64,000 nt of DNA, from positions 14,079,001 through 14,143,000 of the forward strand of contig OX387199.1 in the NCBI GenBank assembly GCA_947561715.1, in the 5' to 3' direction. This stretch comes from Ascidia mentula. Its lineage: Eukaryota > Chordata > Ascidiacea > Phlebobranchia > Ascidiidae. Position numbers and translations under genes: made by a program. Under the pieces are notes generated by a model. It was not told the DNA's origin. It saw only the letters and a program-made list of their open reading frames with translations, and searched no databases. Shown here piece by piece: positions 3,184 to 63,884 of the stretch; positions within the stretch are counted from its first letter, which is position 1; every line of letters begins with the position of its first letter.

Positions 3184-5040
3184 GTTAGAAAACCATAAAA
3201 TATATAAAAAACTATTAGTGCATATTTTTGTGCACAGTTTTACTGCTTAAGTTTAGATAATTCATTATGTTGATGCAAAAGGATTGTACCCAGTTTCACA
3301 CTAAAAAACCAAAAGCGGAATATTATTCCATCTATATTATATAATCCAATGTGATTTCTTTTCAGAACCTAATAGTTGCCAAAAAGTATTTTAAACTGGA
3401 ACACTTCAATGAAAAAATTGAATGCCTAATTATGGTGTGGATAAAAAAAATAAACCCTCCACAGTTTCACATTCCAAGTTAACTGGTTCAGCTTAAATAC
3501 TGCGGATGTAGCACACTCAATTAACATTGTAGCATTGACTGACTGTGCTCAACACTATTATTTAGGTGAAAAACAAACACTATTAACCATAACTGCACCG
3601 GGAAAATTATACACAAACTCACGAGTGGCCTTATATCAAATGAATTAGTCAAATAGGATTCTGTTATTAATGGTTAATTATTCTTGTTAATATCCAACGT
3701 TAAAGTTAACAACATTTGGCATATAGGTCGCAACATAGAGCTACAAAGTTACTTCGCTACTTTATGGTTACTCACTGACAAGTAAATTACTCTAAACTGA
3801 AGTCGTATGTCTCTGGCAGACAACTTGTAGGCGATATTATATATTTTTATTGATAAACATGGAATTCACAATTACCCAGTCCATTTGGAATGATGTTATG
3901 ACCGTAGAAGTCAAAAATGACCTTGACGGCGATCACGCGGAGGCAACTACATTTACAACAAACGTGTCTGAAACGTTAATTAAATACAACGTTTATCTGT
4001 CAAAATCTGGTGAAGAGATTGTTCTTGAACGGTCCAGGTTAACAAATGAAAAAAAGTAAATGTCGGAAATCATATCACGTCATCCGAAAATTTTTAAAAA
4101 TGCCAAAAAATACTTAACAGAAGGGCTTAATCAGTGCAATGCAGCTTGATAATGCAAGCTGTTGTCAAACCACCAGTTGTGCAACCTGTTGAAATAGCAT
4201 GTGGGGAAATAGGTGAAAATGAAACGATATCATTGCATAGAAGGTTTTACACTACATTGAAGTTTTTGATTTCCTGCAAGCAACACAGCCACAAGGGAAA
4301 ATAATTAAGATAAAAGTGGATGCCGCAAATATCTATTATAAGATTTATTATATTTGCTCCAAAAGGTATATATTTATACCACTAAAGAAGTTGTCAATCC
4401 CCAGGAAAAATGGGCTTTGTTTTATTGGCGGAATCAGAAAATGCTTGGAACTATTCCTTGTTTTAATTGACACACTCAAATTTGTTGGCAAAAATGAGGT
4501 TAATCGTGACTTGTACAGTTCAATTGTTTGTGCGTGATAGGTAAAAACCTGATATCACCTGTTGAAACCTTACTAGTGGTGGCAATAAACAGTCTTGTGT
4601 GTTTCTTTGGTGTTGGTCTTTTATCAGATTTTAACAATTGATATACTTAAGAACCAACAAGTTTAAGCATCTCGCCCCATTAGGGGCATTGGGTCATTAG
4701 ACACTGTTATCCATGAGTTTTTGGCCCCATGGGTTGTGCTTCCACCCTTAATTTTTGTAATGTTTCGTTGAAAAAAAAGTTGAATGCCACAAGACACTTG
4801 AGAAATATCTGGATTTGAAGACCGTCAGCCAAAGTTGTCTCGAAACATTTGAGTTTTGTTTGAATCACATAAAAACCATGACTACTAGCGATTGTTGGGT
4901 AAAGGTCGTAACCTTGAAGTTGCGACAGGTTAAAAGATAGTTTACAGTTTTGTTTAGTGTTGCGTAACGCTATTTTTTTGTCTGCAGCGGTAACGGTTTT
5001 TAATATTGCGGAATAAACATTAAAAAAAAATATGTCTTAA
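3184..5040. other. AT-rich stretch, no recognised gene
   Basis: No domain, splice pattern or repeat boundary that I can name is present. The longest frame (3850-4059, plus, 69 codons, MEFTITQSIWNDVMTVEVKN) shows no family motif. The left part may be the rest of the EnSpm copy into which the Harbinger element was inserted, but I found no diagnostic transposase blocks. Confidence 0.4.
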
Positions 5041-52549: not shown

Positions 52550-52779
52550 GGTACATGAACAAGCACTTGAATAGATCTTTGACAAATGTGCACCACTGCA
52601 AATTTTGTGCAAAATGTGTCACTTTTCATTTGTGTAAAAGCAATATTACATTACTTTTTGGGGTAGAAACTTACACACATTGCATGTTTTTACTATACTG
52701 CATGTTGTCATAACATTTCACATCCCACACAGCGCTTCGAAAAACTGCTTAGTAAAGTAAACCCCCAAGTTACTTTGAC

Positions 52780-53904
52780 ATGACTGACATTAGAGGGTCC
52801 CAATATTATGACACCAGCAAGTTTCATTCACTCATTAGTTGCATGGGAAAACAAGATTTATTACTGATGCATTTAAATGTAAGAAGTCTATCACGCATTT
52901 TACCATTTCTGGAAGAATTGCTTGCTTCATGTCAATTACTTCCACATGTAATTGCAATATCAGAAACCAGGCTTAGTGCACAAACTTCTGACAATGTTAG
53001 TCTTCCTGGTTACATATTTCTGCAAGAAAATTCAGTGACCAATGCTGGTGGAGTGGGATTATATATTAGAGATTATTTGCAGTATTGCAAAATAGAAACT
53101 TACCACATTGATATCCCCAAATGCGAAAATTTATGGATACAGCTGCATGTTGATGACAGCGTTTCCATCATAGTTGGTGTTGTGTATCGACATCCCGACC
53201 ATGCCATTGATTTATTTTCCTCACAGATGGAAAATAACTTTTTTAAGCTAAATAAGAGCAAAACAAACTACTACATACTTGGTGACTTTAACATAAACAT
53301 CACAGACAACAACTTAAAAACTAAGGCATATAAACTAATGATTGAAAGTTTAAACGGACAAGCCAACACACACATCACCCTCATCCACCATATCTATACA
53401 AATGATTTAACACATGACATCACCCCAGGAATAATATATATATATCTGATCAACTTTATATATATATCTGATCACATGCCTGTATTTGCTATGATAAATC
53501 AAACAGTCACAACCACTCTGAAATCTTGCAAAACAAATAGAAACTACAGGCAATTCAACTTAGAACAGTTCATGGAAAATATCATTAAAATCGGCAACGC
53601 TGTATCACATGAAACAAATGTTCATATAAAATGTAAAATTTTAATCACTCACCTCCAAAGCACTTCTGTCACCACTTAACTACTTGAAGAACTCTACATC
53701 AAACTCCTTTGTCTTTATAGACATAGAGGAGAACGAAGTTTTCAACACAATTTCAATGCTACACACAAATAAGGCTACTGGTCCATATGACCTCCCAATA
53801 AAGCTCATAAAACTAGCAGCTCCGACACTGACACCAATTTTATGTAATCTTTACAATACCTGCATAGCCAGATGTACTTTTCCTGTTTAAAATCGCAAAA
53901 GAGG
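52780..53904 (+). pseudogene. CR1-like LINE ORF2, cut within the reverse transcriptase
   Basis: The frame starts MTDIRGSQYYDTSKFHSLIS and carries the endonuclease of CR1-like LINEs: LLMHLNVRSLSRILPFLEEL, ISETRLSAQ, GGVGLYIRD, VGVVYRHP and LGDFNINI. The last block, SDHMPVF near 53470-53490, is preceded by a short duplication of TATATATATCTGATCA. The open frame ends at 53679. Reverse-transcriptase sequence begins at about 53700 (FNTISMLHTNKATGPYDLPI, LCNLYNTCIARCTFPV). It breaks off near 53905, after a block like KIAKEVT, where LINEs of this group continue with KKGD and NYRPIS. A matching later part of a CR1-like reverse transcriptase appears at 63885. Confidence 0.85.
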
Positions 53905-54482
53905 TGACAGCTAAATTCACCAGCAAACCAAGTCTCAACGCCTTCAAAGAGCAGCTGTTCAAGGACTTTAGCTACCCGGAGCTCTTAGCTAGACGTGCTT
54001 ACAACTGCGCAACGTACGGCAGAAAAAGGAAACTCTTCGACAGAGTCGCGGAGAAAATGGCAAAAAAGATAGCAAAGCCACTAGAGGTAGAAGAGGCCTT
54101 CCACGTGTTTCATTCCATAGTGGATGGAGCGAAAGATATAAGATGGAACGGCAAAAGATTAACAGTACAAGACCTAAAAGTAATCCTAATACAAGCAGCA
54201 CTTGAAGCCCGCGATACCGTGACTGACGGTATATTGCGGGCCCCTCATGTGCTGCTTCATGGATCAGCTGGTAAGGGAAAGACCCTACTCGGCCAACTTC
54301 TCTTTCCACCGGAAGTTGCAAGTATCCTTACCAACGACAGTGCCGGAGTAGGGCAGATGGCCTTGCGATTCCAACACAAGGTACTAAAAATAGATGATGC
54401 GGGGGAGGCATTTCTCGGCAGTGACCAATTGGTATACATGTACCACGCGGAAATTATACTAACGTACACTCGGATTTTTCAG
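53904..54482 (+). other. SF3-helicase-like reading frame of unknown, possibly viral, origin
   Basis: About 193 codons are open. There is no ATG at the left end, which adjoins CR1-like sequence. The second half has a Walker A box (GSAGKGKT, residues 120-127 counted from 53904) after a hydrophobic strand (APHVLLH), and a Walker B box (KVLKIDDAG, residues 159-167). The spacing is like that of superfamily 3 helicases of small DNA viruses and replication proteins of mobile elements. The first half (SYPELLARRAYNCATYGRKR) is not recognised. A CAG/GTAACT splice donor occurs at 54482/54483. It could be part of an old viral copy or of an unfamiliar mobile element. It appears to be a partial copy. Confidence 0.5.
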
Positions 54483-54603
54483 GTAACTATCACTCCTTAG
54501 TTTCCCCGTAACATTTGTATTGGTTTCGATGCGGACTGGGGAATGTAAGGAAAAATAGCGGGAGACAACGTCGTACGTACATTGTGAAACCTGTTGTACG
54601 TCA

Positions 54604-55100
54604 GTTTAAGAAATTCATTGCGTTCAACGTACACGCTGGTTTTTGTGTACAGTTGCAAGCGCTTTAAGTTAAGAAATTCATTGCGTTTAACATCCACTCT
54701 AGTTTTCGTGTACGGTTGCAAGGGCTTTAAGTTAAGAAATTCGTTGCGTTCAACGTACACGCTGGTTTTCGAGTACAGTTGCAAGCGCTTCAAGTAATCA
54801 GTTGTGCTTGACGACAACTGCATTATTTGTGGACAATGCTATGTGCTTTTAGTCCAGAAACGTATTGGGATTAACTTCTGCTGTAATATATGTGTACAGT
54901 TGCAATGGTTTAAAGTTAAGAAATTTATTGCGTTCAACGTCCACTCTAGTTTTCGTGTACGGTTGCAAGGGCTTTAAGCTAAGAATTTCATTGCGTTCAA
55001 CGTAAACTTTGGTTTTCGTATACAGTTGCAAGGGCTTTAAGTTAAGAAGTTTTTCGATGGTCTGTACAGATGTAACGTAGATTAGATTTTGTTGACAGCA
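54604..55100 (+). repeat. array of 63-bp units, left
   Basis: Six units begin at 54604, 54668, 54731, 54915, 54978 and 55041, each starting GTTAAGAAATT or a close variant. Each contains GCGTTCAACGT and TACAGTTGCAAGGGCTTT. The period is 63 bases (one interval is 64). A 120-base interruption lies between the third and fourth units. The same unit recurs in inverted orientation at 63781-63878. Confidence 0.92.
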
Positions 55101-55259
55101 CATAATCCGTCGATCGCTATTATGTTCAGCCATGCATTAGCTTATGTATGTGGCAAAAAATTGGCATGACTTGAAAATAAATGGTTTGTTTGCGCAACGT
55201 TGATTAATTGCCGTTATTTGTTTGCAGGAAATTAACTGCCAGTTAAAGTAGAAGGAAAA

Positions 55260-58200
55260 ATGGAGATTAACTGCCAATTTAATTTGCAGTATTTTCACGG
55301 CGATGCGCCGCCCATCCCGTGGGTAATGTCACAATTTTAACGTTTTATTCCTTCTACTTTAACTGTATTTTTTGTTTTTACTTTCAGCATCAAGGTCAAG
55401 AACAAAAAATGTGCGTTTCGTCATATTTGTTTTTGAATAATTTTTACCCATTGCGTTTTGTTGCAGATGGCTGCCTCATCATGTGTTTGAGGAGCTCAAG
55501 GGGTAAGTGGGCTGATTATGATAATTAAGACTGATTCGAGTTGAGAACTGATTAAAACGCTATCTTTTTTTCTTGTTTAGACAAAACAAAATTCCGCAGG
55601 CCGCTGTGTAAGTATATTGTGTTTCCTGATGTGAGTCAACCAAAATGTTGTGATGCCAACCGAGTCTTATTTTGTAGGTGGCTGCCAAGGCAACAATTTT
55701 ACGAAAGGGTAAATTTCCATTCTAATTATGTATAGTCATAGGCGTAACCAGGATATTTGAAAGGTCGGGGTCCAATTTTTTGGGAGAAATTTCCCGATTT
55801 TCGGCTGTAAGGTTAATTGTGGTCGAGCATTGCCAGTGTTGGCGTGAACCGTCGCTTGAACGATGGCTTCCAGGCAAGGAACACGCCAACGAGAGTTTTT
55901 GCGGTGGTACTTTCGTCGTAGCTTTATTACTACTGCTTTGGAAGAAAGGCTTGAATTCATTTGTAACGAATAGGATTATGTGAGCTTTCATATAAACAGA
56001 ATTAAGCTATTTTCCGTGCGGTGGTCTTGTATAAATCGTCGTTAAATGGTTGTAAATACGAATTGTTCAAAATGTGCAAAGCAATTTGTAGTTAAAAAAT
56101 GTTTACATGAACTCAAGGAAGGGTACGTGGAATAAATAAGGTAGTTTGAAAAATATAACTTGAATTTGTTTAATTATCTTTTGGGGGCGGGGTTAACAGG
56201 GAAGGGGTGTGTAAATCATATTCTATGCAAATTGGTTTAGAGTTGTAGGGGTGCACACCAACCACAAAGCTACAAATACTTATTAAAATAAAATTGTTGC
56301 CTTTTGTAGGGGCGAGGTGGACAGAGGAGGGTAAGTGTGTGTAATTTATATTTGGCAGGTAAATCATGTACAACGTTAATTTGTTGGGGGTAGTAGGGGG
56401 TGCTCACCACAAAGCTACAAATAATTATTAAAATAAAATTGTTGCCTTTTTTAGGGGCGAGGTAGACAGAGGAGGGTAAGTGTGTGTAATTTATATTTGG
56501 CATGTTAATCATGTACAACGTTAATTTGTTGGGGGTTGTAGGGGGTGCTCACCACAAAGCTACAAATAATTATTAAAACAAAATTTTGCGTTTTTTCAGG
56601 GGCTAGGTGGACAGAGCAGAGTAAGTGTGTAATTTATATTTGGGACGTAAATCATGTGCAACGTTAATTTTTTGGGGGTGTGAAGCTGTACAAATGAGTT
56701 CCTCCGATCGAATACCAGTGCTGGGATCTAACATTTATTCTTGTCATAACTTAGCAGCCTTTGTTTGCAACTCTTTAACAAGCATGTCAACAGTATTAAG
56801 CATGACACTAAGATGTTTTTCTTAACAAACAAAAGTTTGTCCAATTCTGGTTATGATTACATGAAAGAGGTGTCTAACGTATCAGATAATGGTCTCGCAG
56901 ATATATGATAATTATCATGACTCGATTCGCTTCCACTTGTTATGAACTTATCCAACTGTTGGCTGTGAAGCCTGTAAACCTAACAATCTCGATACAATAG
57001 CTGTATATGGTTTGTAATGAATCTTATTCAGCTAAATCGTAAATTTTTTTCCTGATTTGCTTAACCGACTTTTTGTTAAAATTGCCAAAAAATTAAGTAT
57101 ATTCTTTTCAAATGGTCATATACGTGATTGATTACCCTATTGCCATTAATTGGATGTATATCGAAATAATGTTGTTTCACAACATCTATACCAAGTCAAC
57201 ACTATTTTCTGGCTCTATTTAACTGTATGACTTTTTCGCGACTTCACCCAAAAACCTCCAACTCTGCTCCTTCCACAATTCCCCTGTGATAAACATTTGT
57301 GTTTTTACTACGTTTATTTGTTCATATTTCCCAAAACCAATCAAAGCCTTTAGCCCAGAACATTTTACCGAAATGCGAGTGCTGTTTTTACATTCACGAA
57401 ACATTTGTGTTCATACTGTTAATCTGTTTTTTATTCTTTATTTTTACAATCAAGAAGTCCCTCGTATAATGTAAGTGTATAAATGTAACTTATACTGATA
57501 TGTTGTTACCACTTTCAACATTAACTCATTTCAATTTTTTTTTCATTCTCTGAAAGTGTTTTCCTATTGTACTTGCACAACCTTATATGTTTAACAGAAA
57601 CCAATTTCATTTTAGGAGAGAAGTCCCCTGCGCAATGATGTCGTAAGTACATTTACACATTACACCATAGTAAAACTTTTCATTTTCACCTAATCCCTTC
57701 TTTTTACATGCTTCTAACAGCCAAGAAGACATCAACAACGTAATGCAAGTGCTTTTAATATATAAACAACAAAACACCAATTTCAACCTTTTTTACACTT
57801 TTTACCACCATCTTTTTACACCATCGAAGCATGGCCAGTTTTATTATATGTGTTTTTGTACTATTTTTAATGATTATGTTTCATGTATAACCTAGTTTTT
57901 AATTTTAAAGTCCCTTGCATGATATCAGGGATCTAAAACTACCATATATTTACCAAAACTTGTTATAATGAAGTAGCATACCACATTAACTAGCATGCCA
58001 ATAGCACTTTTCATACACATTTTTTTACAGCCAGAACAAGGACAGAATGTTAACAATGTAAGTGCTTCAAAAATTTTAAAAAGCATTTCTTTAAACCAAA
58101 CTAATCTTGTTTAAACATTTTTTTACAGCCAGAACAAGGGCAGAACGGTAACAATGTAAGTGCTTCAAAAATTTTAAAAAGTATTTCTTTAAACCAAACT

Positions 58201-58410
58201 AATCTTGTTCCAAAATTTTTTTACAGCCAGAACAACAGCTAGAAAACGTGTAAGTGTTTACAGTTTTTTGAGTATTTCTTTGTTGAAATAATTTTGTTTT
58301 TTTTATAGGTGAGGAGTGATGCAAGTTTTGTTGTGTTTGCCAACATACATGATTTTAACCAACAAAAATTTGTTTAGGTTGTCACAATAAAAGAATTTCA
58401 TTCGTTTACC
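55260..58410 (+). CDS. micro-exon gene, unknown product, about 124 codons
   Basis: A chain of very short exons with splice sites at both ends: 55260-55322 (from an ATG; or 55290-55322 from an internal TTGCAG), 55388-55410, 55467-55502, 55581-55607, 55678-55708, 56310-56330, 56455-56475, 56600-56620, 57616-57642, 57721-57744 (GC donor), 58031-58057, 58129-58155, 58227-58249, and a last exon from 58309. The phases agree throughout and no stop is met until TGA at 58310-58312; AATAAA follows at 58386. The peptide has WLPHHVFEELKG and WLPRQQFYER, then seven-residue units (GRGGQRR, GRGRQRR, GLGGQSR), then PEQGQNVNN, PEQGQNGNN and PEQQLENV. I do not recognise it. No signal peptide is visible at the ATG used. 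The upstream helicase-like frame ends at a phase-0 donor, so the true first exon could lie further upstream. Confidence 0.55.
55730..55995. other. insertion-like sequence in a long intron of the micro-exon gene
   Basis: This stretch is richer in GC than its surroundings and interrupts the otherwise uniform AT-rich intron between the exons ending at 55708 and starting at 56310. Its first bases (GTCATAGGCGTAACCAGG) resemble the start of some non-autonomous transposons. No terminal repeat pair was confirmed. Confidence 0.3.
56165..56690 (+). repeat. 145-bp tandem units, each with a 21-base exon
   Basis: Four units are present. In the last three, the exon acceptor sites are at 56309, 56454 and 56599, exactly 145 bases apart, and each exon (GGGCGAGGTGGACAGAGGAG plus one base, or a variant) is followed by GTAAGTGTGT. 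The first unit is degenerate: its acceptor reads TTTTGGGG in place of TTTTGTAG. The intron parts share ACAAAGCTACAAATAATTAT and GTTAATTTGTTGGGGG. Confidence 0.93.
57455..57930 (+). repeat. diverged copies of a second exon unit
   Basis: AAGTCCCTCGTATAAT followed by GTAAGT (57455-57476) and AAAGTCCCTTGCATGATATC (57909-57928) resemble the exon at 57616-57642 (AAGTCCCCTGCGCAATGATG). Only the middle one has a clean acceptor and a length divisible by three. The outer ones look like decayed duplicates. Confidence 0.5.
58020..58260 (+). repeat. 98-bp tandem units, each with a 23- or 27-base exon
   Basis: Acceptor sites TTTTTTTACAG end at 58030, 58128 and 58226, exactly 98 bases apart. The exons start CCAGAACAA in all three. 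The first two are 27 bases long and the last 23. The intron parts are nearly identical (GTGCTTCAAAAATTTTAAAA, CCAAACTAATCTTGTT). Confidence 0.95.
58386..58391 (+). terminator. poly(A) signal of the micro-exon gene
   Basis: AATAAA lies 74 bases after the predicted stop codon in the last exon, on the plus strand. This fits the end of the gene model. Confidence 0.6.
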
Positions 58411-58668: not shown

Positions 58669-61600
58669 TCACAAATCAAAGACTTTGTTCACACTAAGAT
58701 CCGTCTTGTTGATGATCATACAAATGTTGAAGCCTTGAATGGTGTCAAGTAACAGAAAGTCTGTAAAACAATAACAGATCCTAACAAAATACATTCCACA
58801 ACAAATTTAAAGAAAATTCCAACCACGCCTAGAGACTTTTCTTTGTGGTCGTTGGCATTTTTGATGACCCAGACGCCTCGCCAGTAGCCATATGAAACTG
58901 GGTTTATTCACATGCAATCATAAAACTAACGCACAAAAGTTTTGCCAAAGCCATAATGTTACAGTTTATTTCGGGACAATTGCAACACAAAAAGTATGGT
59001 TTACACCCTAAGGGTAATTTCTACCATCACTCTTGTGAGTGTTACACCAATCAGGTCGAAACCTAAGAGGTACGGTTTACACCCATTGGGTAATTTCTAC
59101 CATCACTCTTGTGAGTGTTACACCATTCAGGTCAAAACCTAAAAGGTACGGTTTACACCCTTCGGGTAATTTTTACCATTGCTCTTGAGTGCTACACCTT
59201 TGTAGCAGAAAATGTTCAATGAAATCATTTAAACTTACAACAAACATACAAAACTTTTGTCCCTTTTTGCCTGTTTTAACGAAAAACTGATACATTTGAT
59301 GTGAAACCACTGTCCACACCGAGTGCACTCAATCCAGTGTGTCAAGGGGTCGTCACCTTCAACTCCACATTTTTTGCATGTTTCTTTGTTGTATGTGCCA
59401 CTTAAGCATTTTCCAGCGATTACATTTAGGATTTCCAAATATTTTTAATTGAAGCTCCTCTTTGTAGGATTTGAGCTACAGTTGAACAGACATAGAGTGT
59501 GTGTTGGTGTTTAGTAGTTAATTGCCACAAATAGCTGTTAATAACTTCATCATAAAGCCAACCAACATTGAATCTGCTATCATGCTTCCTCAGGTCACAA
59601 ACTTCATGTGGGGGTAATGTGTCATCAAGAGATTTTAACTCCAACAAAGTCATTGAATGAGGGCCATTTTTCAAAACCTTTGCATCAGCATCGTTGCTCT
59701 TGATGTAAGCTGTGATATTTTGCTGTTTCGATGCTGTATTGTGGTTTGTAGCTCTCCAAGTAAACTCTTGACAAGAGGACTCATTTTGACCACAGGGTGT
59801 TGGTGTCTTTGATGTTGCTTGTGTTGCTCTTGGCTTGGTTACAGGAAATAAAGTAGTGACTTGGTGAAGAGGTTGCATTAGATTTGCAAAGCGCCCCACA
59901 CGTGAAGTGTATGGGTTTTGGACGCTTGCGAGGCAGCTCATCATGCAAAGCTTTTCCAGTGGCTGCTGATTTTCGCTTCCTTTTCAAAGATCTTACCTTC
60001 GGAAGCTGTGTAATTCGAAGTCCAGCATCATAGGAACAAGCTTTGGAAAACTTGGAAATAATTGCTTCAACATCTTCAATTACTTCACTTAAAACACTTG
60101 CAACAGAAATGCGGTCCACAACATCAGGATCCAAAACCATGTATACTGAGCTGTGATACCATTCTGGCAGGTTGTACCATCCTATATCATCATACTTGTT
60201 AAACACTGCAAACATGTGCTTGCATGGTAAAAAATTGTGCAAAAAATCAAAACAAGAGCACTTTGGAAACATGCTGGCTGATCCTAGATTTACTATGTAT
60301 ACCTGGGTTGTCGAACTGCTCACCACAGTAAATGTGTTGTCCCCCTTTCTACAAATTTTACCTGCCTCTATTTCTGCAGACTCTCCTATTCGCTTAATAC
60401 AATGTTTTACCACCTTTCTTGGTCGATTTCTGAGAAAGCTGGGAATATCTGTGTTGTAACTACGGTAATTGCCTGATGATCTGAGGTTTTCTTGTTTGTA
60501 TCTGCACAAGGCAGAGAAATAATAACTTTTGTAATTACTCGTTGCAGGATTTAATCATTTGATTACTACATAAATGGAAAAAAAATATTGTTGTTAACCT
60601 TACTTCTACAACTTACTTTTCCCATCCATTGGGCAAAAACTCCTTGTGCAAAATTGTAATTAGACCAGATAGAGACTTGTCTGTTCTAAACCTCACATGG
60701 CATTCTTTTAAAACACGATTTTGTCTCTCTACTCCATTGTTGGTACGGATTAGTACCTTCAACTGGTCTGCACGATAAACCCATAACCATCTCTACAAAC
60801 AAACAAAAATATCTTCAGTGCTAATCATATTTCACTGGCATATTCCCCATACTTCCTTTTCCTTTAACCAAATATTGCTGAAGTACTTTTGCAGTTTTAC
60901 AATGTGAGCTTGACTGAAAGACCTGGAGTGCTTTTTCATAGCTGTGTTTGCATTCAGCACTGGCAATCTTTCTCATGAGTGCAAGCACTTCATCCTTATC
61001 TTCATGCTTATGTACCGGTAAAAACGCTCTCAATAGCATGTATCTCTGCATCACATTTGTCGACCATAAAAAATGAAGGATTCCATTCAGGAGTCCATTG
61101 TTTTAATATGGCCAGTGCTTCTTCAATGTCTATTTGCCTCTCGTTCTGTGTTATAAAGCTGGCCACAACTTGGTAGCCAACATTTGTCTTGACACAGAGA
61201 AAAAACAGTGGAAGTTTTGTATGTTGCATCCATTAGACAAATGTCTTGACCATAGCGCAAAAGCAATCTGCGCTGCCAAGCAAACTGATGAATAAACAGC
61301 ATGGTTTGCTCAGATTCAATTACTGGTGTTGCCTCTCCTTTAACAACATTAGGTTCAATGCTGGAAATATATGGTCGAAAATATATTTTGTCATCAACAT
61401 TCCCTGTCTTTGTCCATTCATCCACCAAACACTGCACGTTTGTCTGATCAATCTTTGCAAGCTTATGCTTTGAAAATGACCGATAGTAATGGCTTTGGAT
61501 GTCCTTTTTGGTTGGATAAAACCTTCTGTTGGAAAGGGATGGCGCCTCTTCATTTTTAAACAATTCATGGGTAAAATAATGCTTCAGACTTAAAAATTTC

Positions 61601-62900
61601 GTAAAATTTCCTCAACACTGTGGACACCATTGTCCACCAATTCATCAATTCTGGCTATTAACCTTTGATCCACAGGTTGAAGGAATCCTGCCGCCTTTTA
61701 GAAGTTAATATGGTTAAACATGTGTTTCTGCAAATAATTGTGCAAATGACAAAACACTTGCCTCTCCCAAAACATGACCTGTATGAGCGTCTTTTTCGGG
61801 AAGGCATATACTGCAGGCAAACTGCTTTATCAGGTGTTCATCATTAGTTTTTAACATATCTTTAATGATGATACTTGACTTTGTCATGACAGACCAACGT
61901 TTCATTGATACCTGAAACATAATATGTTCAATAGTTTAAGAACATCACACCACAACTGAGGATTCACTTGGAACTGTGGAAATTTCATGATTTCTTGAAT
62001 AAAAATTTTTGCTTTACTAAGAAAAACATTGTTAAAATGTGTTGCTCCTTATCTTTCTCAATACAGTTCAAATTTCATACCTGTTTTATAATGGGTACTT
62101 TGCGACTTTCATTATAACTCTTATTTCGATCAAACAACTTAATATGAAGAAAAACTGTGCAAATGTGAATATGAACAAAATGACTTTATGGTGAGTCCTT
62201 CAACACACATATTCATGTTCACTGCTAAAAGTACTTTAAATACTATGTTGTGATAAACATGCCAAATGTTTCCATCTTTCTCACGATATGTTGAACCACT
62301 TGTCGTGCTTGATCAAATGAATAAACCCACTGCAGAAATGTTTGTTTGTTTAGTAAGTATTAATATGTATTGAACCTTAAACAGTCACCTACTTGTAAAT
62401 TTTTTTCTTGTTTTTGCATATGGACTGGTGCAAACGTCTGTACATATGTTAAGTGCCAACATGCATGTGTATATGTACACATTAAACAGAACCACAAACC
62501 TTTTTATTTAAACCTGTTGCCCCTTTGAACTCCCTTTTAAAAATTTTCACAAAAAATGCTGTTTCCTTTGTTGGGCACGTATCGTTGCTTTCAAGCCTTT
62601 TTCTTATTACATTGTTTGCTGTTCGCATTTGGGAACTTGAACTTTTATTCTACAGACAATGGATAATAATAGGATAACAGCCTAAGGACAGGCAAACTGT
62701 TTGTATGAGGATAGAAATACCACATTTTTGTATTGTGGACAGAACACTACATCACATATAGTAGCTTCGTATTGGCATTCACTTTCAGTGCAAGTTTTGT
62801 CCTTGATCCAAAATGATATCCTATACTTTGCATATGGAATGCCAGAGTCGTGTGTCCAATGGACTTGCATTTTCCTTAGGTCTGCATACAACAACAAAAA
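58669..62900 (-). pseudogene. MULE transposase gene with SWIM and PHD-like fingers, decayed
   Basis: Read on the minus strand, an N-terminal block (62897-62690; KMQVHWTHDSGIPYAKYRIS) is followed by 61900-61780 and 61690-61570 (QPVDQRLIARIDELVDNGVH). The core follows: RRFYPTKKDIQSHYYRSF, then LLLRYGQDICLMDATYKT (first Asp, about 61240) and FFMVDKCDAEIHAIE (second Asp, about 61050). The acidic block is NNGVERQNRVLKECHVRFR near 60700. A SWIM finger (CSCFDFLHNFLPCKHMF) lies near 60260-60210, a PHD-like finger (CKKCGVEGDDPLTHWIECTR) at 59380-59300, and a last exon LLDTIQGFNICMIINKTD at 58760-58669. About 13 bases are lost after DATYKT, shifting the frame, and the segment between the second Asp and KDEVLALMRK is deleted. 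The gene is therefore dead. Its deleted relative lies at 49640-50460. Confidence 0.82.
58992..59212. repeat. 76-bp tandem repeat, about 2.9 copies
   Basis: TACGGTTTACACCC-type starts occur at 58995, 59071 and 59147, exactly 76 bases apart. Each unit contains GGGTAATTTCTACCATCACT and GAGTGTTACACC. The array lies in an intron near the end of the MULE gene. Confidence 0.93.
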
Positions 62901-63780
62901 TACTTTTTAAATTATAATTAGATAATGTTGCCCACATTTATTCATAAATTTGCGAGTTTTTGTCTGAATAGAAGAACTCCAACATGTAAGTGTTCACTAA
63001 ATGAACATGACAAACAAGATTTAAACAAAATGAAATGACGTGTTTATATTATGAAACTGCAAAAATTAAATATGTTTACTGTTTGACCACAAGATTTACC
63101 AAAAATTTTATCCAAACAGTCTTTCCAACCAAGTGATAACGAACTTGCAAATTGCTGCATGAAATTGTTTGCTTCCTGTTTGAACTGAAACCACTACAGT
63201 AAAATACAAAAAAGCAAAGTAATGAAGCTGGTAGGATATTTTGAGAAGTACTGTTTTGTTACGCACCCTTATCACAGTGTTTGCAGCTGAAAAAATTAAT
63301 AATTACAAAAATTCACGAAAGTTCTGTGCAATGTCACCTTATTGGGCCTATGCCTTCCACCCAAAGGGATCTTGGCACAGGTATGCAAGTTCGGCAATGA
63401 CGTGACTCTCGGTCATCAAAAAAACCCACCAAAAAGTAAAAAAATTTTAACAAGCTCATTTTTGACAACCTTTTTATTCATGAACCAAAAATACAATAAA
63501 CCTGTTTTACATGTCATATTTTTTTGGCAATTGTCAACAAATTATTAAAAACATCAACATTTGGCAAATATGTCATGAAATACATAGTTATTTCTTAACT
63601 GGCTGCTAAAAAATTGTCCAAATTAAATCTACAAACAAATTTACATATTTATCTTCCATTTCTTAGAAGTGGAACAACAACAATAAAAGATTGTCAGATG
63701 TCAAAATTGAAATACAATTTAGTATTACAGCAAGATGAAAATACATCCACAGTAAACCTTCAAAGTCATGTAAAGAAAAT
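62901..63780. other. AT-rich stretch, no gene recognised
   Basis: This lies between the first recognisable part of the MULE gene and the right 63-bp array. Short frames at 63342-63548 and 63614-63796 show no motif. It may hold the 5' untranslated part and promoter side of the MULE gene. Confidence 0.4.
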
Positions 63781-63878
63781 CCAGAGTGTACGTTGAACGC
63801 AATGAATTTCTTAGCTTAAAGCCCTTGCAACTGTACACAAAAACCAGATTCTACGTGTTACGGAATAAATTTCTTAAC
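63781..63878 (-). repeat. 63-bp units, right, inverted
   Basis: One full and one partial unit in reverse orientation have their GTTAAG or GCTAAG starts at 63878 and 63815, 63 bases apart. They align over nearly 100 bases with the start of the left array (shared CTGGTTTTTGTGTACAGTTG). The right edge meets CR1-like sequence directly. Confidence 0.9.
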
Positions 63879-63884
63879 TTTTTT

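Follow-up and report, generated by a model that had tools for sequence, protein, structure and literature searches.

A micro-exon ladder within a Mutator-like transposon of the ascidian Ascidia mentula: a candidate accessory gene

What is a ladder of exons only a few codons long doing in an ascidian genome, and to what does it belong? We address this question for 64,000 nucleotides of Ascidia mentula DNA (GenBank assembly GCA_947561715.1, contig OX387199.1, positions 14,079,001 to 14,143,000, forward strand), hereafter the window, with position 1 its first letter. The mitochondrial COX1 of this genome is, in our judgment, best read with AGA/AGG as Gly, which is the ascidian code. A first-pass annotation had read positions 55260 to 58410 as a row of 21- to 36-base exons that splice in a single phase into about 124 codons, and had pointed to the micro-exon genes (MEGs) of schistosomes as the known model. 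Our analysis, which draws on DNA sequence and its comparison throughout, indicates that the ladder looks like a real small gene that has been coding in its family, and that it is situated inside a Mutator-like (MULE) DNA transposon, just within the left end and beside the transposase gene. We favor, at a probability of about 0.55, an accessory gene of this MULE encoding a basic nucleic-acid-binding helper or anti-silencing protein. For the window copy itself we think a recent relic probable, the gene having once been selected in the family.

The ladder as a gene model

The model comprises 13 exons on the plus strand (window 55260-58391) that, when joined, give 124 open codons and a stop, with sizes of 63, 23, 36, 27, 31, three times 21, 27, 24, 27, and 27 nt ahead of a terminal exon. 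Its parts, including one exon seen intact only in a sister copy (copy B, introduced below), are:

55228..55259, plus strand, 5' untranslated part of the first exon, after a TTTGCAG acceptor (sequence reading)
55260..55322, plus strand, E1, 63 nt, MEINCQFNLQYFHGDAPPIPW, occurring at six genome places
55388..55410, plus strand, E2, 23 nt, HQGQEQK(I)
55467..55502, plus strand, E3, 36 nt, WLPHHVFEELK(G)
55581..55607, plus strand, E4, 27 nt, QNKIPQAA(V)
55678..55708, plus strand, E5, 31 nt, WLPRQQFYER, resembling E3 by eye; in copies C and D, not in B
56310..56330, plus strand, E6, 21 nt, GRGGQRR, 145-bp array unit 1
56455..56475, plus strand, E7, 21 nt, GRGRQRR, 145-bp array unit 2
56600..56620, plus strand, E8, 21 nt, GLGGQSR, 145-bp array unit 3
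57450..57470, plus strand, ghost exon, encoding SRSPSYN in copy B, where it is intact; in the window copy its acceptor AG is gone (alignment and splice-site scan)
57616..57642, plus strand, E9, 27 nt, ERSPLRNDV
57721..57744, plus strand, E10, 24 nt, PRRHQQRN, GC donor (GCAAGT) in the window, GT in copies B and C
58031..58057, plus strand, E11, 27 nt, PEQGQNVNN, 98-bp array
58129..58155, plus strand, E12, 27 nt, PEQGQNGNN, 98-bp array
58227..58391, plus strand, E13 (terminal exon), PEQQLENV, stop, 3' untranslated part, and AATAAA at 58386-58391

Every segment named in the first-pass annotation is present with its acceptor and donor, as is the downstream AATAAA, and the 124 codons stand. Its description needs three corrections: E1 is 63 nt long, E10 needs a GC donor here, and an exon intact in copy B has lost its acceptor in the window. 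A stop follows the last codon in either case, TGA if 58249 joins 58309 and TAA if this part is left unspliced. The 3' part of E13 is conserved in copies B and C and in further copies on contig C72. Upstream of the ATG, stops occur in all three frames (by reading), including an in-frame stop within exon 1 itself, and the TTTGCAG acceptor may be either a cis-splice site or a site for spliced-leader trans-splicing, which occurs in tunicates.

Much of the ladder is built from whole exon-intron units repeated in tandem, E6-E8 in an array of 145 bp x 2.9 and E11-E13 in one of 98 bp x 2.2. From E6 to E12 (E10 on its GC donor) every length is divisible by three, which lets units be gained or lost with the frame intact. 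In copy B a single GRG-type exon is present, and its 98-bp array holds a single PQEG-type exon followed by a final one that stops early; because these exons are fewer there, the repetition in the window copy is probably young. The gap between E8 and E9 spans 995 nt. Two introns also hold repeats found elsewhere: about 30 of 50 among the matches listed fall in a dispersed repeat in the fifth intron (55737-56033), and a 44-bp stretch of the long intron (56961-57005) recurs at 36 places among the matches listed, at 86-93% identity.

Splice-like sites might line up by chance, aided by tandem repeats, and we searched for the longest open series of exons between 15 and 60 nt, each required to have an acceptor and a donor and to keep the frame open. 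The ladder region yielded a chain of 12 exons (327 nt) with a wide donor list, which took in GTGCGT and GCAAGT and was picked after sight of the sequence. The longest chain had 5 exons in 158 further overlapping windows taken from both strands of the 64 kb, and again 5 among 200 dinucleotide shuffles. With GTAAG/GTGAGT donors only, the chain was 9 exons long, one of them ending elsewhere than in the gene model, vs maxima of 3 (windows) and 4 (shuffles). The best-scoring chain has 11 of 12 exons in common with the model, using 56607-56646 instead of 56600-56620, and the model's 12 internal exons (308 nt) all fall within the candidate set. A chance origin draws some support from the late choice of donors and from the six exons that stem from two tandem arrays (eight internal exon types remain if each array is counted once), but the chain lengths and the codon patterns in other copies, presented next, leave it scarcely credible, and we rejected it.

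The first-pass annotation had also called its phase test strict. The stops on which it relied are there, only in frame +2 for the exon at 56455 and only in frame +1 for that at 56600, but the test is weaker than was held, since chance alone leaves a stretch of 21 nt open in any one frame in about 7 of 10 cases (arithmetic). The single consistent phase is nonetheless borne out, by the chain beyond chance together with the coding-type substitution pattern among sister copies.

Sister copies and the coding pattern

The genome contains the exon-1 region at the six locations listed here, a seventh DNA match extending over only 36 bp:

C52:14079001-14143000, copy A, the window
C52:9428312, copy B
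C52:7584998, minus strand, copy C
C52:9557702, minus strand, copy D
C52:17653715, minus strand, copy E
C71:12854742, copy H (locus L015)

Five pairs among these six copies, which are not independent as copy C enters four of them, differ in exon 1 by 22 synonymous vs 14 nonsynonymous changes, while random placement predicts a synonymous share of 0.35 (p 5e-5, 20,000 draws). E2-E11 carry 19 synonymous and 27 nonsynonymous changes, again more synonymous ones than the share of 0.30 expected (p 0.023). Read in the predicted frame, 0.45-0.49 of the changes among copies A-D are synonymous, compared with 0.10-0.18 when either of the other frames is used. These patterns indicate past selection on the family as coding sequence.

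Divergence between exons and introns gives a less uniform picture. Between A and D, 8/180 exon and 6/269 intron positions differ; exons differ more than introns in the pairs A-B (25/149 vs 13/196, p 0.005) and A-C (23/180 vs 18/266, p 0.04), and the gap is not significant in A-D, D-C, or B-C. In window 55260-55708 the exons thus diverge about twice as much as the introns (A-B, A-C), despite the synonymous excess. We considered this exon excess as a sign of positive selection and dropped it, base composition being uncontrolled and the three other pairs not significant. Copy H, for its part, matches over exon 1 and intron 1 only (MKINCNFTIQYFNGDVPPIPW), followed by unrelated sequence.

The surrounding Mutator-like element

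The ladder is enclosed by the following parts of the transposon:

54449..55051, plus strand, left terminal inverted repeat, with terminus GGAAATTATACTAACGTACA at 54449 and a 63-bp minisatellite of 7.1 copies at 54606-55048 (Tandem Repeats Finder, TRF)
58989..59198, no strand assigned, 76-bp tandem repeat between the two converging genes
59238..59444, minus strand, transposase PHD finger part (PF00628, E 2.5e-8, over the cut-off)
59781..60554, minus strand, transposase SWIM zinc finger part (PF04434, E 6.9e-7, over the cut-off)
61011..61611, minus strand, transposase ALS2CR8-like plus RNase H-like/MULE part, in two overlapping frames and broken, with matches under the cut-off
61714..61935, minus strand, probable further transposase exon (ALS2CR8, E 0.0081, under the cut-off)
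63769..63880, minus strand, remnant of the right terminal inverted repeat, with inverted 63-bp units, cut off by sequence resembling a long interspersed nuclear element (LINE) (by eye)

Three features mark the element as a MULE, namely a transposase domain (in its relative L050, below), terminal inverted repeats, and a target-site duplication in the range of 8-11 bp. The termini GGAAATTATACTAACG are common to the element copies, and copies B and C, 7,982 and 11,120 bp long, carry GGAAATTATACTAACGTACA at both ends in inverted orientation, flanked by 9-bp target duplications (GTTATAAAT/GTTATGAAT, 8/9 matching, in copy B; ATTTAAGTC/ATTTAAGTC, 9/9, in copy C). The left terminus is present in the window and in copy D, and the terminal 159 bp have 18 matches in the genome, among them C2:15338732, C71:15196866, C71:14802476, C52:9484613, and C70:5032613. 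The 63-bp array occurs in copies A, B, C, and D with widely differing unit counts: 7.1 in the window, 2.6 on the left (longest row) and 9.5 on the right in B, and 24.1 and 51.6 in C.

By position, as judged from the sequence, the gene belongs to this element. It starts 0.2 kb past the terminal array in the window and within about 30 bp of the array in B and C, and both the gene and the transposase pieces (minus strand, 59238 to 61935) are bounded by the left terminus on one side and the right stub on the other; the left terminal repeat is probably the promoter side of the gene. Upstream of exon 1, the terminus or clear 63-bp units are present at five of the six places (A, B, C, D, and E), while at copy H the 63-bp-like matches are only short (42-56 bp at 77-83%). 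The matches on C72 and C1 are fragments confined to parts of the gene other than exon 1; 63-bp units accompany those on C72, and none were seen at C1. Neither genome DNA queries with both halves of the gene nor a protein query with exons 1-3 returned a copy free of the element.

The transposase of the window is damaged. A 74-aa frame matches PF21056 (E 6.3e-6) and PF10551 (E 8.7e-4), neither of which reaches the cut-off, and is 91% identical over 67 aa to L050, in which the same families score above it (PF21056 E 1.9e-12, PF10551 E 1.3e-8); L050 exceeds the cut-off for ALS2CR8, ZSWIM1-3 RNase H-like, and MULE domains. L060, which adjoins L050, contributes a C48 (Ulp1) protease and a PHD finger (PF00628, E 1.6e-7). 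The window reading changes frame after DATYKTS and has no counterpart of the protease part, the L060 alignment skipping 3362-3703, so this copy cannot make a whole transposase.

Transposase matches are numerous in the genome. A 133-aa transposase stretch gave 77 genome matches at E up to 0.001, a count that includes pieces of single copies and whose weakest members need not be MULEs. L050, whose transposase stretch is 80% identical to that of the window, is 98-99.6% identical over about 3.3 kb to L051, L052, L053, L056, and L059, which indicates that close relatives moved recently. The locus L050/L060 (G000:C2:6800302-6807985) thus represents a recently active MULE family with ALS2CR8, MULE/RNase H-like, SWIM, C48 Ulp1, and PHD matches and a minisatellite of its own, a 57-bp array in L060 with no BLAST match to the 63-bp array of the window.

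Around the element, an open reading frame fragment with a P-loop-like motif (GSAGKGKT; 53868-54500, plus strand) stands just outside the left terminus. It finds nothing above the Pfam cut-off, nor anything in the PDB better than E 0.25, and we set it aside as a 5' exon of the gene, since it lies mostly outside the terminus at 54449. LINE-like parts flank this fragment and the MULE together, an endonuclease match at 52756-53870 on one side and, from 63880 on the other, sequence read by eye as LINE reverse transcriptase, as if one insertion had split or replaced part of a LINE.

Proposed role, alternatives, and known systems

The 124-residue product is basic (pI 10.4), rich in Q (16%), R (12%), and G (11%), and repeats GRGGQRR-like and PEQGQN-like motifs, a composition that suggests nucleic-acid binding with little fixed fold. 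Extra genes known from other MULEs are mudrB (apparently required for integration), vanB, and vanC (anti-silencing) (PMC6446971). The ascidian element resembles the VANC-bearing ones in that its terminal minisatellites differ between related elements and its gene grows by tandem exon-intron units, and it is this likeness that favors a helper or anti-silencing role. Under such a role, the gene would be transcribed from the terminal repeat and its transcript spliced in the germ line or embryo; the product would then bind the nucleic acid of its own element, for example the fast-changing 63-bp terminal repeats, and binding would aid transposition or prevent silencing of the element, as is thought for the mudrB and VANC products of plant MULEs.

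Several observations weigh against a functional accessory gene. Constraint is not evident in every exon, E6 by itself showing 3 synonymous and 15 nonsynonymous differences. No other copy seen retains the whole ladder: copy B is without E5 and its frame fails downstream, copy C is without E6-E8 and its E9 has 25 nt, copies D and H match the 5' part only, copy E is degenerate, and the C72 copies include one with a stop and another whose acceptor is lost. The window copy itself no longer has the acceptor of one exon, relies on a GC donor at another, and its transposase is broken. In the active relative L050/L060, no accessory gene was recognizable in the 0.9 kb before the transposase 3' end (that side, one copy). 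The product is unmatched in Pfam (E up to 1) and PDB (E up to 10), in line with the first-pass annotation, which had recognized no homolog. Finally, a target motif common to the terminal 63-bp array and the repeat arrays beside or within the gene was sought and rejected: the repeated 7-mers in common numbered none for the 145-bp, one for the 98-bp, and three for the 76-bp array (p 1.0, 0.68, and 0.08), and the idea of a VANC-like target is left without motif support.

How else might the ladder be read? It could be a host gene captured by the transposon as a Pack-MULE-like passenger, with no role for the element. MULEs are known to capture host sequence (PMC6446971, PMC8277862), the active relative is without the gene on the side examined, implying gain or loss in one lineage, and a diverged parent gene would escape searches, while copy H shows the element only weakly; against this, neither the DNA queries of both halves nor the exon 1-3 protein query found an element-free copy, and a survey of 100 animal genomes reports no Pack-MULE (PMC8277862). 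We regard capture as unlikely, though deserving of weight. The ladder could also be a dead relic, its splice-like sites and open frame left over from an older accessory gene with nothing expressed or selected now. The broken transposase, truncated right end, lost acceptor, and GC donor, on which we base the view that the window copy is likely a relic, fit this reading, as do the incomplete or broken sister copies; and at the low A-D divergence (exons 8/180) few stops would be expected without selection, so an open frame could persist. The synonymous excess in the predicted frame, pointing to past selection on the family as coding, and the 124 codons that are still open stand on the other side, and we hold it improbable that a dead remnant is the whole explanation.

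Kinship with schistosome MEGs, as implied by the first-pass annotation, would make the product a secreted, variable animal protein. The micro-exons fit the MEG range of 3-81 bp and the central exons are mostly multiples of three, but MEG proteins have a signal peptide in common (PMC10526429), and E1, judged by reading, has neither a signal peptide nor a hydrophobic run and contains an in-frame stop upstream of its ATG. With a transposon context and an ascidian rather than a flatworm host in addition, we rejected this kinship as very improbable.

A MULE accessory gene is therefore the reading we carry forward. A bolder version of it, which we consider speculative and rather doubtful, is that a chordate MULE independently evolved VANC-like self-recognition, in which a fast-changing DNA-binding protein assembled from duplicated micro-exon-intron units would recognize the terminal minisatellite of its own element and guard it against silencing. 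If the accessory-gene reading as such is right, the ascidian gene would join plant VANDALs as a second example in which an extra MULE gene changes by duplication of exon-intron units, and tandem duplication of a unit of intron plus 3n-length exon would be one route to micro-exon ladders. A survey of MULEs describes the evidence in chordates as limited; it names a single sequence, from Ciona savignyi, and could not confirm earlier reports on lancelet and horse (PMC6446971); here, an ascidian genome has many MULE transposase matches, one lineage of which has an extra gene of 21-36-nt exons. A literature search, limited in extent and leaving absence unproven, returned no micro-exon gene inside a transposon and no ascidian MULE with a second gene.

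Among known systems, schistosome MEGs resemble the ladder in their runs of short exons, many of them multiples of three, and the coding exons here (21-63 nt) lie within their 3-81 bp; they differ in the absence here of a signal peptide (by reading), in the transposon context, and in phylum, and were set apart on these grounds. In maize MuDR, mudrB and the transposase gene converge, and a converging second gene inside one MULE is likewise found here. We know of no mudrB gene built from micro-exons. Like the ascidian gene, mudrB (MURB) is a second small gene beside a MULE transposase gene (PMC6446971), while its host is a plant and the two products were compared through Pfam only. Rehavkus elements of insects and annelids, listed with one open reading frame (PMC6446971), have a PHD finger in the transposase, a minisatellite before the terminal repeat, and a 9-bp target duplication as here, a likeness drawn from these features; they are unlike the ascidian element in its SWIM domain, the C48 protease of its relative, its chordate host, and its second gene. 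The vanC gene of the Arabidopsis VANDAL/Hiun elements differs in that the ascidian product has no Pfam match (the comparison being through Pfam only) and that its arrays share no repeat motif with the terminal array above chance. VANC binds the non-coding tandem repeats of its own element, which change fast (PMC10398659, PMC5735166), and the exon/intron organization of VANC genes is tied to tandem repeat formation, with tandem peptide motifs in the product (PMC5735166). The ascidian gene is alike in outward build: it is the accessory gene, as we read it, of a MULE whose non-coding tandem repeats differ between related elements, and it has been altered by tandem exon-intron repeats that give its product tandem peptide motifs.

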